From Propionivibrio dicarboxylicus (GTDB taxonomy: Bacteria; Pseudomonadota; Gammaproteobacteria; Burkholderiales; Rhodocyclaceae), in assembly GCF_900099695.1 (NCBI RefSeq), contig NZ_FNCY01000001.1:186001-250000 (forward strand): a stretch of 64,000 bases of DNA, given 5' to 3'. Of this stretch, positions 27,298 to 31,169 are shown piece after piece. Under the pieces are notes generated by a model. The model worked only from the letters and a program-made list of their open reading frames with translations. It ran no database searches and was not told the origin of the DNA. How positions within the stretch are numbered: position 1 is the stretch's first letter; every line of letters starts with the position of its first letter. The position numbers and the translations under genes are program-made.

Positions 27298-27723
27298 ATG
27301 GATTTGCGCAAGCTCAAGAAACTCATCGACCTCGTCGAGGAATCCGGAATCGCCGAACTCGAAGTCACCGAAGGCGAGGAAAAGGTGCGCATCGTCAAGC
27401 ACGCCTCGGCCATGGTTCCGCGCCAGAAGCGCAGCGAATCGGCCGTCCAGCTGCCGCCCGCAACCGGCGCCGACGACGACCTCGGCGACGGCGAAACGGT
27501 CAAGGCGCCGATGGTCGGCACCTTCTATCGCACTGCCAGCCCGGAAGCCGCACCGCTGGTCGAGATCGGCAGCATCGTCAAGGAGGGCGACCTGCTCGGC
27601 GTCATCGAGTCGATGAAGCAGATCCACGAAATCGAATCGGACTGCGACGGCGTCGTCCGTGCCATCCTCGTCGAAAGCGGACAAGCCGTCGAGTACGGCA
27701 CGCCGCTGTTCGTCATCGAATAG
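27298..27723 (+). CDS. accB: Biotin carboxyl carrier protein (AccB)
   Basis: This 141-residue carrier has the typical N-terminus MDLRKLKKLIDLVEESGIAELEV, a variable linker and the biotinyl domain. The predicted biotin-accepting Lys107 lies in IESMKQIHEI. The usual motif is (E)AMKM or AMKL, so Ser before Met and Gln after Lys are unusual. It is followed after seven bases by an accC-like gene that has lost catalytic residues. The pair may therefore not be the cell's working acetyl-CoA carboxylase module. The fold itself looks intact. Confidence 0.9.
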   Translation: MDLRKLKKLIDLVEESGIAELEVTEGEEKVRIVKHASAMVPRQKRSESAVQLPPATGADDDLGDGETVKAPMVGTFYRTASPEAAPLVEIGSIVKEGDLLGVIESMKQIHEIESDCDGVVRAILVESGQAVEYGTPLFVIE

Positions 27724-27730
27724 GCAGGGC

Positions 27731-29095
27731 ATGTTCGGCAAGATCCTGATCGCCAACCGCGGTGAAGTCGCCCTGCGCATCCTGCGGGCCTGCCGCGACC
27801 TCGGCATCAAGACCGTCGTCGCGCATTCGGAAGCGGACCGCGGCGCCCGTTTCCTCGCGCTCGCCGACCAGGCCGTCTGCATCGGCCCGGCCCCGGCCAG
27901 TCTGAGTTACCTGAACGCCGCGGCGATCCTGTCGGCGGCGATCGTCAGCGATGCCGAAGCCATCCATCCGGGTTACGGATTCCTCGCCGGCAGTGCCGAT
28001 TTCGCTGCCCGCGTCGACGCCGCCGGACTGAGCTTCATCGGCGCACGGGCGGAAACGCTGCGTTTGCTCAACGACAAGACACGCCTGCGCGGCGCCATGA
28101 AAACCGCCGGCATACCGTGCATTCCCGGCCCCGACACTCCGCTCGCTGACGACGCGAAGGAGGCGCAGCGACTCGCCAAGAAGCTCGGTTATCCAGTCGT
28201 CATCAAGGCTTCCGTCTACCGCGGCGAACGCGGCATGCGCATCGTCCACACCGACGCCGCGCTGCTCAACGCGATCACGCAGACCCGGGCTGAAGCGCTA
28301 GAGCTCTGCGGCTCCGCCGATGTCTATCTCGAAAAACATCTCGAATACCCACGGCATATCGAGATCCAGATGCTCGCCGACCAGCATGGCAATGTCCTTT
28401 TTCTCGGCGAGCGCGACTGCTCGCTGCAGCGCAAGGGGCACCGGCTGATCGAGGAAGCGCCGGCCTTCGGCATCCCCAACCGATTGGTTGCCCGCATCGG
28501 CGAACGCTGCGCCGATGCCTGCCGTCAGATTGGCTTCCACGGCGTCGGCGGTTTCCGTTTTCTCGTCGAAAAGGGCGACTTCCACTTTGCCGGAATCACC
28601 GCGGGACTGCAGTTCGAACACCCCTTGTGCGAAATGGTCACGGGCATCGACCTCGTTCAGGAACAGATCCGCGCCGCCGCCGGCGAAAAATTGCGCTTCC
28701 GCCAACGCGAACTGGTTTTCCGCGGCCACGCGATCGAATGCCGGATCAATGCCGAGGACCCGCAAAGCTTTCTGCCCGCCCCGGGGAAAATATCCGCCCT
28801 TCATTTCCCGGGCGGCCCCGGCATACGCTGCGACAGTGCCCTGCAGGCCGGCGAAGCGGTGACCGCACACTACGATCCTTTGGTGGCGAAAATCATTGCT
28901 TTCGGCGAAAATCGCGAACATGCCATTCGTCGTCTGCGCAACGCGCTGGACGAGGCGAGAATCGAAGGTCTGCGAACCAATCTCGCCCTGCACCGGAACC
29001 TGCTCAACGACGCCAATATTCAAAAAGGCGTGACCAACCTTCACTACCTTGAAAAAGTGCTCGCCATCAAACGCGACGCCCAACGAAAGTCTTAA
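27731..29095 (+). CDS. accC: Biotin carboxylase-like protein with degenerate active site
   Basis: This 454-residue protein aligns without gaps to E. coli biotin carboxylase as far as residue 340, so numbering is shared. Lys116, Lys159, His209, Glu211, Gln233, Glu296 and Arg338 are kept. The ATP-grasp glycine loop 162-166 is V-Y-R-G-E instead of five glycines. His236 is Gly, Lys238 is Arg, metal ligands Glu276 and Glu288 are Arg and Gly, Asn290 is Thr and Arg292 is Gly. With both metal ligands and the bicarbonate-site residues gone, catalysis is very unlikely. The frame is open throughout and the gene keeps its usual place before prmA. Confidence 0.9.
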   Translation: MFGKILIANRGEVALRILRACRDLGIKTVVAHSEADRGARFLALADQAVCIGPAPASLSYLNAAAILSAAIVSDAEAIHPGYGFLAGSADFAARVDAAGLSFIGARAETLRLLNDKTRLRGAMKTAGIPCIPGPDTPLADDAKEAQRLAKKLGYPVVIKASVYRGERGMRIVHTDAALLNAITQTRAEALELCGSADVYLEKHLEYPRHIEIQMLADQHGNVLFLGERDCSLQRKGHRLIEEAPAFGIPNRLVARIGERCADACRQIGFHGVGGFRFLVEKGDFHFAGITAGLQFEHPLCEMVTGIDLVQEQIRAAAGEKLRFRQRELVFRGHAIECRINAEDPQSFLPAPGKISALHFPGGPGIRCDSALQAGEAVTAHYDPLVAKIIAFGENREHAIRRLRNALDEARIEGLRTNLALHRNLLNDANIQKGVTNLHYLEKVLAIKRDAQRKS

Positions 29096-29100
29096 GCATC

Positions 29101-29997
29101 ATGTCATGGACAGCCATCAGCATCGAAACCGACTGCGAACACGCCGAAGCGCTGGCTGACGCGCTGATCGACAATGGCGCGCTCTCGGCCAGTATTGAAG
29201 ATGCCGATGCCGGCACCCCGGCCGAAACGCCGCAATTCGGCGAACCGGGGTCGGTGACGACACCGGGATGGTCGCGCTCGCGCGTCGTCGCCCTGCTCGA
29301 CGACAGCACCGATCCCGATATCCTGCTGGCGGTCTGCGCACCCCTGGCCGAACTGAATGCGGTGCCGAACTACACGCGCGAAACCGTCGCCGAGCAGAAC
29401 TGGGTGCAACTCACGCAATCGCAATTCGACCCGATCCGGGTATCCGACCGGTTGTGGATCGTGCCATCCTGGCACGAAGCGCCAGACCCCAATGCGATCG
29501 TTCTCGTGCTCGACCCAGGCATGGCCTTCGGCACCGGCTCGCACCCGACCACACGCTTGTGCCTCGAATGGCTGGAACGCGCCATCGCGCCCGGCGAATC
29601 GCTGCTTGATTACGGCTGCGGTTCCGGCATCCTGGCCATCGCCGCGGCAAAGCTCGGTGCAACCCCAATCCTGGGTGTCGATATCGACCCGCAGGCGGTC
29701 AGCGCCGCGATCGACAATGCCGAACGCAATGGCGTCACCGCCCGCTTCGCCGATTCGGCCCAGTCCATTGCCGGACAGTTCGACGTCGTCGTCGCCAACA
29801 TTCTCTCGAATCCGCTCAAGGCCCTGGCTCCGGCCATCTGCAGCCACGTTCGTCCCGGTGGAAAGCTCGCGCTGTCAGGCATTCTCGCCGAGCAAGCCGA
29901 CGACCTGATCGGCGTATACGCCCCCTACGCCACCCTTGTCGTCGAAGACACGCGTGACGGCTGGGTCTGTCTCGCCGGCACCAGAAAGTCCGCATGA
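29101..29997 (+). CDS. prmA: Ribosomal protein L11 methyltransferase
   Basis: PrmA trimethylates ribosomal protein L11 using SAM. The 298-residue protein has an N-terminal L11-recognition domain and a C-terminal Rossmann methyltransferase. Motifs are DPGMAFGTGSHPTTRLCLEWL, motif I LDYGCGSGILAIAAAKLG and the substrate-site VVANILSNPL. It starts five bases after accC and its stop overlaps the next start (ATGA), so the genes form one operon. Confidence 0.97.
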   Translation: MSWTAISIETDCEHAEALADALIDNGALSASIEDADAGTPAETPQFGEPGSVTTPGWSRSRVVALLDDSTDPDILLAVCAPLAELNAVPNYTRETVAEQNWVQLTQSQFDPIRVSDRLWIVPSWHEAPDPNAIVLVLDPGMAFGTGSHPTTRLCLEWLERAIAPGESLLDYGCGSGILAIAAAKLGATPILGVDIDPQAVSAAIDNAERNGVTARFADSAQSIAGQFDVVVANILSNPLKALAPAICSHVRPGGKLALSGILAEQADDLIGVYAPYATLVVEDTRDGWVCLAGTRKSA

Positions 29998-31169
29998 AAA
30001 CCCGCTGCCCCGAGTGCCAGACCACCTTCCGCGTCACCCCGGACCAGTTGCGTGCACGCGCCGGCAAGGTTCGTTGCGGCCAATGCCAGACGGTGTTCAA
30101 CGCACTCGACAGCCTGATCGAAGAGCACCCGACGGCCGGCAACGATCTGCCCGTGCCGGCACCTGGGCCATCACCGGCCGCCCCGGTCGAACTGGCAGCG
30201 CCAATCGACTTCGGCGTGGTGCCCCCGGCACCGGTGCTGACGGCCACGCCGCAAACACCGGCCATGGAGGCGCCATCGGAACCCGAATTTCCGGAGGCGA
30301 TGCCGGAAGAAGAGGAAGAAGACGCTGCCGACCCGACCGATGAGCTAACGGACGACGAGGCAGATGACGAGGCAGATGACGAGGCAGACGACAAAGCGGA
30401 CGACGACGCGGAGGATGAACCCTACATCCCGGCACCGGACCCCGCCCTCAGCGTCCTGCTCGAACCGACGTTCGCCGAGCCCTCCGATACAGAAAGGCGC
30501 AGGGAGCCCAGCGAACAAGCCACGGAGACGACCGCCGACGGCGAGCCCGTCACCCCGCTCAGCGAAGCCGAAGCCCAGGAACTCGGCAAGGCGACCGGCC
30601 TGATTCTGCCCCGCGAAATGACCGAAGTGCCTGGCTACAGCAAGTGGTCGGCCGGTGTCATGGCAGCCCCCGTGCATCAGGAAGCTGCACCGCCGATGCG
30701 CTGGCCGTACATCGTCGTCGCCACAGTGCTGGCCATTGCACTGCTCGGACAGATGTCCTATCGCTTCCGCACCGAACTGGCCATCAACGTGCCGGTCCTG
30801 CGCCCCGTACTCGAAAAAATGAGCGCCAGCCTGGGCACCACGATTCCGCTCGCGCGCCGGGTTGATCTGATCAGCATCGAGTCGTCCGACCTGCAAAGCG
30901 ACACCGCCCGCGGCAACTTGCTCGTACTGAGCGCCACCGTGCGCAACCGCGCGGCCTTTCCGCAGGCGTATCCCGCACTCGAACTGGCTCTGACCGATAC
31001 GCGCGACACACCGATTGCCCGCCGCGTCTTCCTGCCGGAAGAATATCTGCCAGCCACTCAACCCGCTGGCCAGCCCATCGGTCCGCACGCCGACGTCGGC
31101 GTCCGCGTCTGGATCGAGGCCAAGGACATCAACGCCGCCGGCTACCGCCTCTACGTCTTCTATCCCTGA
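29994..31169 (+). CDS. Zinc-ribbon and DUF3426 membrane protein
   Basis: This 391-residue protein opens with an MJ0042-type zinc ribbon, CPECQTTFRV then RCGQCQTVFNAL. A long Pro/Ala and acidic low-complexity linker follows, including a tandem DEAD/DDEA repeat. There is one membrane segment (YIVVATVLAIALLGQ, about residue 240), and the C-terminal DUF3426 domain lies outside the membrane. It overlaps prmA by four bases, the standard betaproteobacterial arrangement. The function is unknown. The design suggests a cytoplasmic metal or nucleic-acid module tethered to a periplasmic domain. Confidence 0.9.
   Translation: MKTRCPECQTTFRVTPDQLRARAGKVRCGQCQTVFNALDSLIEEHPTAGNDLPVPAPGPSPAAPVELAAPIDFGVVPPAPVLTATPQTPAMEAPSEPEFPEAMPEEEEEDAADPTDELTDDEADDEADDEADDKADDDAEDEPYIPAPDPALSVLLEPTFAEPSDTERRREPSEQATETTADGEPVTPLSEAEAQELGKATGLILPREMTEVPGYSKWSAGVMAAPVHQEAAPPMRWPYIVVATVLAIALLGQMSYRFRTELAINVPVLRPVLEKMSASLGTTIPLARRVDLISIESSDLQSDTARGNLLVLSATVRNRAAFPQAYPALELALTDTRDTPIARRVFLPEEYLPATQPAGQPIGPHADVGVRVWIEAKDINAAGYRLYVFYP
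30353..30411 (+). repeat. 12-base tandem repeat coding an acidic tract
   Basis: Units close to GACGAGGCAGAT repeat about five times within the DUF3426 gene and encode Asp-Glu-Ala-Asp. The repeats drift in sequence toward the 3' end. Length polymorphism by slipped-strand pairing would keep the reading frame. Confidence 0.75.

Follow-up and report, generated by a model that had tools for sequence, protein, structure and literature searches.

Results

A biotin carboxylase with an erased catalytic centre

The window analysed here, a stretch of 64,000 nucleotides from Propionivibrio dicarboxylicus, carries on its forward strand the genes accB (27298..27723), accC (27731..29095) and prmA (29101..29997), and the usual accB-accC-prmA order given in the original prediction is correct. 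The accC frame encodes 454 aa with no inner stop and is likewise stop-free in a second species (genome G027), whose orthologous protein is 97% identical. In phmmer searches residues 1-446 align without gaps to 4mv1 of H. influenzae and residues 1-449 to 3jzf of E. coli (E about 1e-166), and because the alignment to the E. coli biotin carboxylase is gap-free, the residue numbers used below are those of E. coli. The gap-free alignment to E. coli AccC that had been predicted therefore stands, whereas its predicted end at residue 340 does not, as the alignment runs to about residue 446. The N, ATP-grasp and C domains (PF00289, PF02786 and PF02785) all pass their cut-offs, which identifies the biotin carboxylase fold; the protein stays under both NCBIfam cut-offs for AccC (569.2 vs 626.5 bits for TIGR00514, 588.6 vs 597 for NF006367). 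An AlphaFold2 model shows the same fold with confidence (pLDDT 90.3), and the structures closest to it are E. coli biotin carboxylases (TM-score 0.96, 55% identity). Given that an alignment of AccC relatives served as input to AlphaFold2, an AccC fold was a near-certain outcome, and the model says little about the site. On the basis of the alignment, a residue check and a dN/dS of 0.047, we refer to this protein, a biotin carboxylase fold with its catalytic centre erased, as the erased AccC.

The preceding gene, accB, encodes a diverged biotin carboxyl carrier protein of 141 aa that scores 138.5 bits against a TIGR00531 cut-off of 115.2. An alignment of 22 AccB proteins places the presumed biotin-accepting lysine at K107 (codon 27616..27618, forward strand). 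The protein passes the PF00364 cut-off and keeps this acceptor lysine, which together mark it as a carrier protein, and the lysine lies in the context ESMKQIHE in place of EAMKLLNE. Judging from the sequence K107 is probably biotinylated, yet since the motif ESMKQ departs from EAMKL, biotinylation is not certain. In E. coli the N-terminal part of the carrier binds AccC, and AccB represses its own operon. The first 35 residues of the present AccB are those of two relatives, G003 and G013, both of which have a whole accC and also an accA.

Residues lost and residues kept

A position-by-position check bears out the predicted list of retained residues, Lys116, Lys159, His209, Gln233, Glu296 and Arg338, at each position checked; G165 is kept as well, as are E201, K202, Q294, Y82 and G83. 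The predicted losses, namely four loop glycines, His236, Lys238, Glu276, Glu288, Asn290 and Arg292, are equally real, the substitutions being G162V, G163Y, G164R, G166E, H236G, K238R (a conservative change), E276R, E288G, N290T and R292G. On the forward strand, the former glycine loop at residues 162-166 (28214..28228) has lost four of its five glycines in both species and reads VYRGE, or VHRGD in G027, in place of GGGGG; residues 236-238 (28436..28444) have changed from HQK to GHR; codon 276 (28556..28558) now specifies Arg; and residues 288-292 (28592..28606) read GITAG, or GITPG in G027, in place of EMNTR. E276 and E288, which we take to be the metal ligands of biotin carboxylase, and N290, to which we likewise assume a role, are thus replaced by R, G and T. 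Among K238, R292, E296 and R338, presumably the bicarbonate and biotin residues, E296 and R338 are present, R292 is lost and K238 has become Arg. The G027 orthologue lacks the residues at all ten positions as well (with H at 163 and D at 166), so that the losses are neither private to one genome nor sequencing errors, which the original prediction had rightly discounted. Being a homologue without catalytic residues, the erased AccC is best read as a pseudoenzyme, and its sequence suggests that it has no carboxylase activity.

For comparison, biotin carboxylase is present in 100 of the first 112 loci, 98 of them after the window's own genome (G000) and G027 are set aside; these 98 comprise 13 congeners, 5 proteins of the PCC type and the best 80 of 592 matches, and are therefore biased to close relatives. 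Among these 80, the nearest AccC proteins that come with a name belong to bins labelled Dechloromonas, Betaproteobacteria, Rhodocyclaceae and Azonexus. E276, E288, N290, R292, K238 and E87 are each retained in 98/98 and H236 in 97/98, and none of the 98 has lost two or more among H236, K238, E276, E288, N290 and R292. The erased AccC is additionally without E87 and N88, the latter kept in 97/98. As G162 is retained in just 91/98, its loss alone means little. Across 109 loci, a redundant set with several per genome, 184 sites are at least 97% conserved; the erased AccC has lost 36 of these, half of which (18) fall within residues 163-166, 235-238 and 269-299. Sites invariant across the 13 congeners are altered in 107 of 337 cases, and the changes reach 15/27 in residues 271-300 as against 0/20 in residues 316-345, two segments picked post hoc, the second being the retained block around Arg338, RGHAIECRINAEDP (28676..28765, forward strand). 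Between G000 and G027, 5 of the 15 differences lie in former-site segments that make up 52 of the 454 residues, more than expected in this post hoc comparison (p 0.022).

Purifying selection on the erased gene

The original prediction had proposed comparing dN/dS of this copy across relatives. Between G000 and G027 the erased accC shows a dN of 0.0154 and a dS of 0.326, that is a dN/dS of 0.047, with 15.5 non-synonymous vs 90.5 synonymous differences over 454 codons. For the same pair of genomes dN/dS is 0.043 in the neighbouring prmA, which served as rate yardstick and as tree marker, 0.013 in accB and 0.051 in mpl. The median over 58 mechanical ORF calls from six regions common to both genomes is 0.091, a set in which four calls with dN/dS above 1 resemble antisense frames. 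In this set the frames for accC and accB start upstream of the genes, giving 0.057 and 0.149, so that the gene-based 0.047 and 0.013 are the better figures. Constraint on the erased accC is about that on prmA and tighter than that on the median ORF call; the gene is under purifying selection in two species. The ratio of dN in accC to dN in prmA has a median of 0.41 in 78 pairs of the 13 genomes with ordinary accC, is 1.84 for G000 against those 13 congeners, and is 1.12 for G000 against G027. The rate pattern is a burst on the stem and then constraint, somewhat looser than in true AccC.

Apparent loss of acetyl-CoA carboxylase (ACC) in the genus

The assembly of G000 has 4.53 Mb in 44 contigs and is 98.6% complete and not closed; that of G027 has four contigs and is 98% complete. 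According to one branch of the original prediction a working accC would lie elsewhere, and it had proposed a genome search for it. Searches of G000 and G027 found no biotin carboxylase besides the erased one, and accA and accD are missing from both as well. The sole other hits to biotin carboxylase in G000, two matches of 22%, lie in a single 1069-aa frame, which we read as carbamoyl-phosphate synthase. The prediction would have been refuted if this were the only accC of its genome and active, or if all relatives carried the same residues in proven AccC. It is indeed the only accC found, whereas the relatives with whole accC keep the catalytic residues. The partner carboxyltransferase that a working AccC needs, AccA with AccD, was not found in G000: PF01039 has a single match there, an MmdA-type protein, and a single match in G027. 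In both genomes alkA and tilS, the genes on either side of accA in G012, lie at most about 150 bp apart with accA absent, and between trpA and folC, where G026 has accD, there is an unrelated ORF of about 280-320 aa. This ORF was rejected as a diverged accD, as it has no PF01039 match; by eye its product resembles a periplasmic solute-binding protein (L287 4377-5348 and L288 4108-4947), 87% identical between the two species.

Within a genus sample of 28 genomes, ordinary whole accC is present in 13, at 60-62% identity, and G007 (75% complete) has a short accC end beside prmA and nothing more. No accC was found in 12 others, G010 (70% complete) and G015-G025. True AccA (E below 1e-145) occurs in 14/28 genomes, and was found neither in G000, G027 and G010 nor in G015-G025. 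In these last 11 genomes none of accA, accC and accD was found, and five of them, G015, G016, G017, G021 and G022, are 92-100% complete. Both the accA and the accD places are tightly closed in G016 and G017, and the accD place is closed in G022; stretches where folC does not adjoin trpA (G015, G021) or alkA does not adjoin tilS (G015, G021, G022) are uninformative. prmA is without accBC upstream in 10 of the 11, and in G019 the contig stops within prmA. In a family sample of 248 genomes at least 85% complete, biotin carboxylase was found at E <=1e-60 in 245, the three without it being G015, G016 and G022 of this genus. Six of the 245 (G061, G115, G148, G164, G194 and G245) have a best biotin carboxylase match of only E about 1e-111 to 1e-81, poorer than expected of an ordinary AccC, and may also lack AccC or represent gaps.

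In a tree of prmA and fabD the erased pair and the ACC-less genomes stand in separate places, with several weak nodes. The AU test rejects a single loss shared by the 11 ACC-less genomes and the erased pair (p 0.003) and also one confined to the 11 (p 0.006), but does not reject a common loss in the two larger clades, which hold 10 genomes (p 0.116); the test draws on two proteins, which is little data, omits G010 as incomplete and was run with 5000 replicates vs the 10000 asked for by the program. It seems that the genus lost ACC more than once.

Fatty-acid synthesis and candidate sources of malonyl-CoA

ACC is regarded as the enzyme that commits bacteria to fatty-acid synthesis in its first step, and as an antibiotic target. 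G000 and G027 each have a fabD above its curated cut-off, and so do 9 of the 11 genomes G015-G025, which are without ACC; the exceptions are G018, where the gene is cut, and G023, where a weaker match lies in a 921-aa frame. In G000, frames that read as plsX, fabD, fabG, acpP and fabF adjoin one another, all but fabD being named by eye. Very long frames (921-2521 aa) in G024 (C104), G019 (C82) and G023 (C284) match the fabD model less well and are perhaps polyketide synthases.

Genes for the A, D, C and B subunits of a Na+-pumping methylmalonyl-CoA decarboxylase (Mmd) are present in G000 and G027. In G027 alpha, delta, gamma and beta lie together at about 229-233 kb of contig C2 (delta named by eye); in G000 A and D are on C13, and C and B on the contig ends C15/C35. 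These ends (L175 1-222, L176 5732-5953) break inside one biotin-carrier repeat, and at the corresponding place G027 has MmdC twice in tandem and a further MmdB (L179 6129-7126). The extra MmdC and MmdB copies of both genomes adjoin a gene that by eye resembles methylmalonyl-CoA mutase. The beta subunit passes TIGR01109 (450 vs 190.6 bits), and MmdA is under the TIGR01117 cut-off (749 vs 998.8). Mmd A, D, C, B sets occur in 9/11 of G015-G025, and not in the loci examined for G019 and G024. Since G012, which bears ACC, also has an Mmd set, the set alone does not predict ACC loss. G000 and G027 also share a 511-aa OadA/5S-like protein, which ends in the apparent start of a biotin-carrier domain (L174 5465-7000; L178 5584-7119). 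It is 99% identical between the two (dN/dS 0.023), passes PF02436 and PF00682, and is under all NCBIfam cut-offs listed (5S 206.7 vs 827, oadA 220.6 vs 756.5 bits); relatives of it adjoin Na+-pump genes in G010 and G011.

Discussion

As the rest of ACC is apparently lost, the erased AccC has seemingly taken on a new task, probably a non-catalytic one, and malonyl-CoA must come another way. We propose that AccB and the erased AccC form a selected, non-catalytic carrier or scaffold pair, and that their lineage makes malonyl-CoA without ACC, most likely via Mmd, a reading to which we give a little less than an even chance. ACC would have been dismantled in the lineage of G000 and G027, with accA and accD removed; the site of AccC for ATP phosphate, metal and bicarbonate would have gone in a burst of substitutions, after which AccC would have come back under strong purifying selection, jointly with AccB. 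Given that AccB keeps its N-terminal segment and lysine, and the erased AccC its fold and the Arg338 block, the pair probably still forms a complex, in which the erased AccC may act as a non-catalytic holder of biotinylated AccB. MmdA, the only carboxyltransferase found, would pass a carboxyl group via biotin to acetyl-CoA and so yield malonyl-CoA. Possible donors of this group are methylmalonyl-CoA, oxaloacetate (by way of the OadA/5S-like protein) and, if the pump runs backwards, CO2. We infer the complex, its participation in malonyl-CoA synthesis and any link of the pair to Mmd.

Reversal of the methylmalonyl-CoA decarboxylase pump is reported to carboxylate acetyl-CoA (Dimroth and Hilpert 1984, cited in PMC7274780). 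Mmd-based malonyl-CoA synthesis in these genomes is what their gene content would suggest. The reversibility of decarboxylase Na+ pumps of this type is discussed in a passage of PMC7274780, and passages of PMC8473912 and PMC7145394 on such pumps make no mention of malonyl-CoA synthesis by such pumps. The erased AccC is found in two species only, and as 10 of the 11 ACC-less genomes are without accBC beside prmA and no accC was found in any of the 11, the pair is not needed for ACC-free life there. A wider reading, which we consider rather unlikely but worth stating, is that a bacterium with FASII can make malonyl-CoA without ATP-dependent ACC, by a Na+-pumping decarboxylase run in reverse or by transcarboxylation, that leftover AccB-AccC serves as a soluble biotin-carrier module with AccC as its scaffold, and that the genus lost ACC more than once by this route.

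That the erased AccC might be a slowly decaying relic, the other branch of the original prediction, would fit the missing catalytic residues and the long stem branch. It is contradicted by a dN/dS of 0.047 at a dS of about 0.33, with so few of the differences non-synonymous, and by the absence of an inner stop in either species, and we regard it as scarcely credible; the pseudoenzyme branch is borne out by the same figure as far as sequence can. Nor does a spare copy beside an ordinary ACC hidden in the missing part of the assembly seem other than very improbable: G000 is indeed neither complete nor closed, but G027 is without the same genes, the accD and accA places are closed in both, and three genes would have to hide twice, which makes an assembly gap an unlikely cause of the absence. 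Malonyl-CoA could instead derive from malonate through a malonyl-CoA synthetase, or fatty acids could be mainly imported, with the AccB-AccC pair unrelated to either. Acyl-CoA synthetases related to the MatB model do occur in G000 and G027 (281 and 278 bits), yet the MatB cut-off of 558 bits is passed by 0/28 genomes, which led us to reject MatB as the source, a MatB match at 1e-60 is lacking in 7 of the 11 genomes without ACC, and fabD is kept; we hold these routes to be quite improbable.

Two further explanations accept that the gene is selected and differ on what for. The site of the erased AccC may have been rebuilt for another task and not silenced, so that the old fold now serves as a different enzyme or as a sensor, for instance one that senses nucleotides or handles carboxybiotin without ATP cleavage. 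Strong purifying selection and the retention of K116, K159, E201, K202, H209, Q233, Q294, E296, R338, Y82 and G83 speak for this, whereas positions 163, 166 and 291 still vary between the two species, which suggests slack and not a rebuilt site; on balance we think it unlikely. To the same degree we doubt a regulatory or other moonlighting role of the pair with no part in malonyl-CoA formation. Such a role would keep the fold and the interaction surfaces and yet allow loss of the site, and the AccB N-terminus is unchanged, but with the former target ACC gone there is little left to regulate.

With AccC of bacterial ACC the erased protein shares the gap-free alignment, 55% identity, a TM-score of 0.96 for the predicted model and the accB-accC-prmA order; it differs in being without the glycine loop, E276, E288, N290, R292, H236, K238 and E87, and in that neither AccA nor AccD was found in G000. 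MmdABCD is matched by the gene set A, D, C, B, but is known as a decarboxylase pump, whereas here it is additionally proposed as a malonyl-CoA source. In plants, BADC proteins are described in PMC11926652 as non-biotinylated BCCP-like subunits of plastid ACC, a non-catalytic part of its assembly. As is proposed for the erased AccC, they are non-catalytic descendants of an ACC subunit retained in a complex; in contrast, it is there the carrier-like protein and not the carboxylase that is non-catalytic, and active ACC is present. AccS of Shewanella, presented in PMC11602165 as a single-chain, working multi-domain ACC, likewise deviates from the four-protein ACC usual in bacteria, but it works as an ACC, whereas the search of G000 turned up no other biotin carboxylase. 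As judged by the listings, literature searches on biotin carboxylase pseudoenzymes of acetyl-CoA carboxylase and on the names of the residues lost found none, and a search on Propionivibrio with acetyl-CoA carboxylase found nothing related; on transcarboxylase replacing ACC there was nothing relevant, and on bacteria lacking ACC no case by title among the matches listed.

An AccC that is erased and yet tightly conserved would be a natural case in which what biotin carboxylase does as a structure is set apart from its chemistry. Likewise, given that ACC has seemingly been lost repeatedly with fabD kept, whether FASII runs without ACC, and on which carboxyl donor, is directly testable.

Two other segments of the window deserve a remark. 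The gene 3' of prmA (29994-31169), whose product by eye starts with a zinc ribbon, evolves fast between G000 and G027, with 78% identity and a dN/dS of 0.26. The segment 16381-17544, between tRNA-Phe and tRNA-Met, has a GC content of about 0.42 vs about 0.6 around it; it appears by eye to encode a membrane acyltransferase and was possibly acquired.
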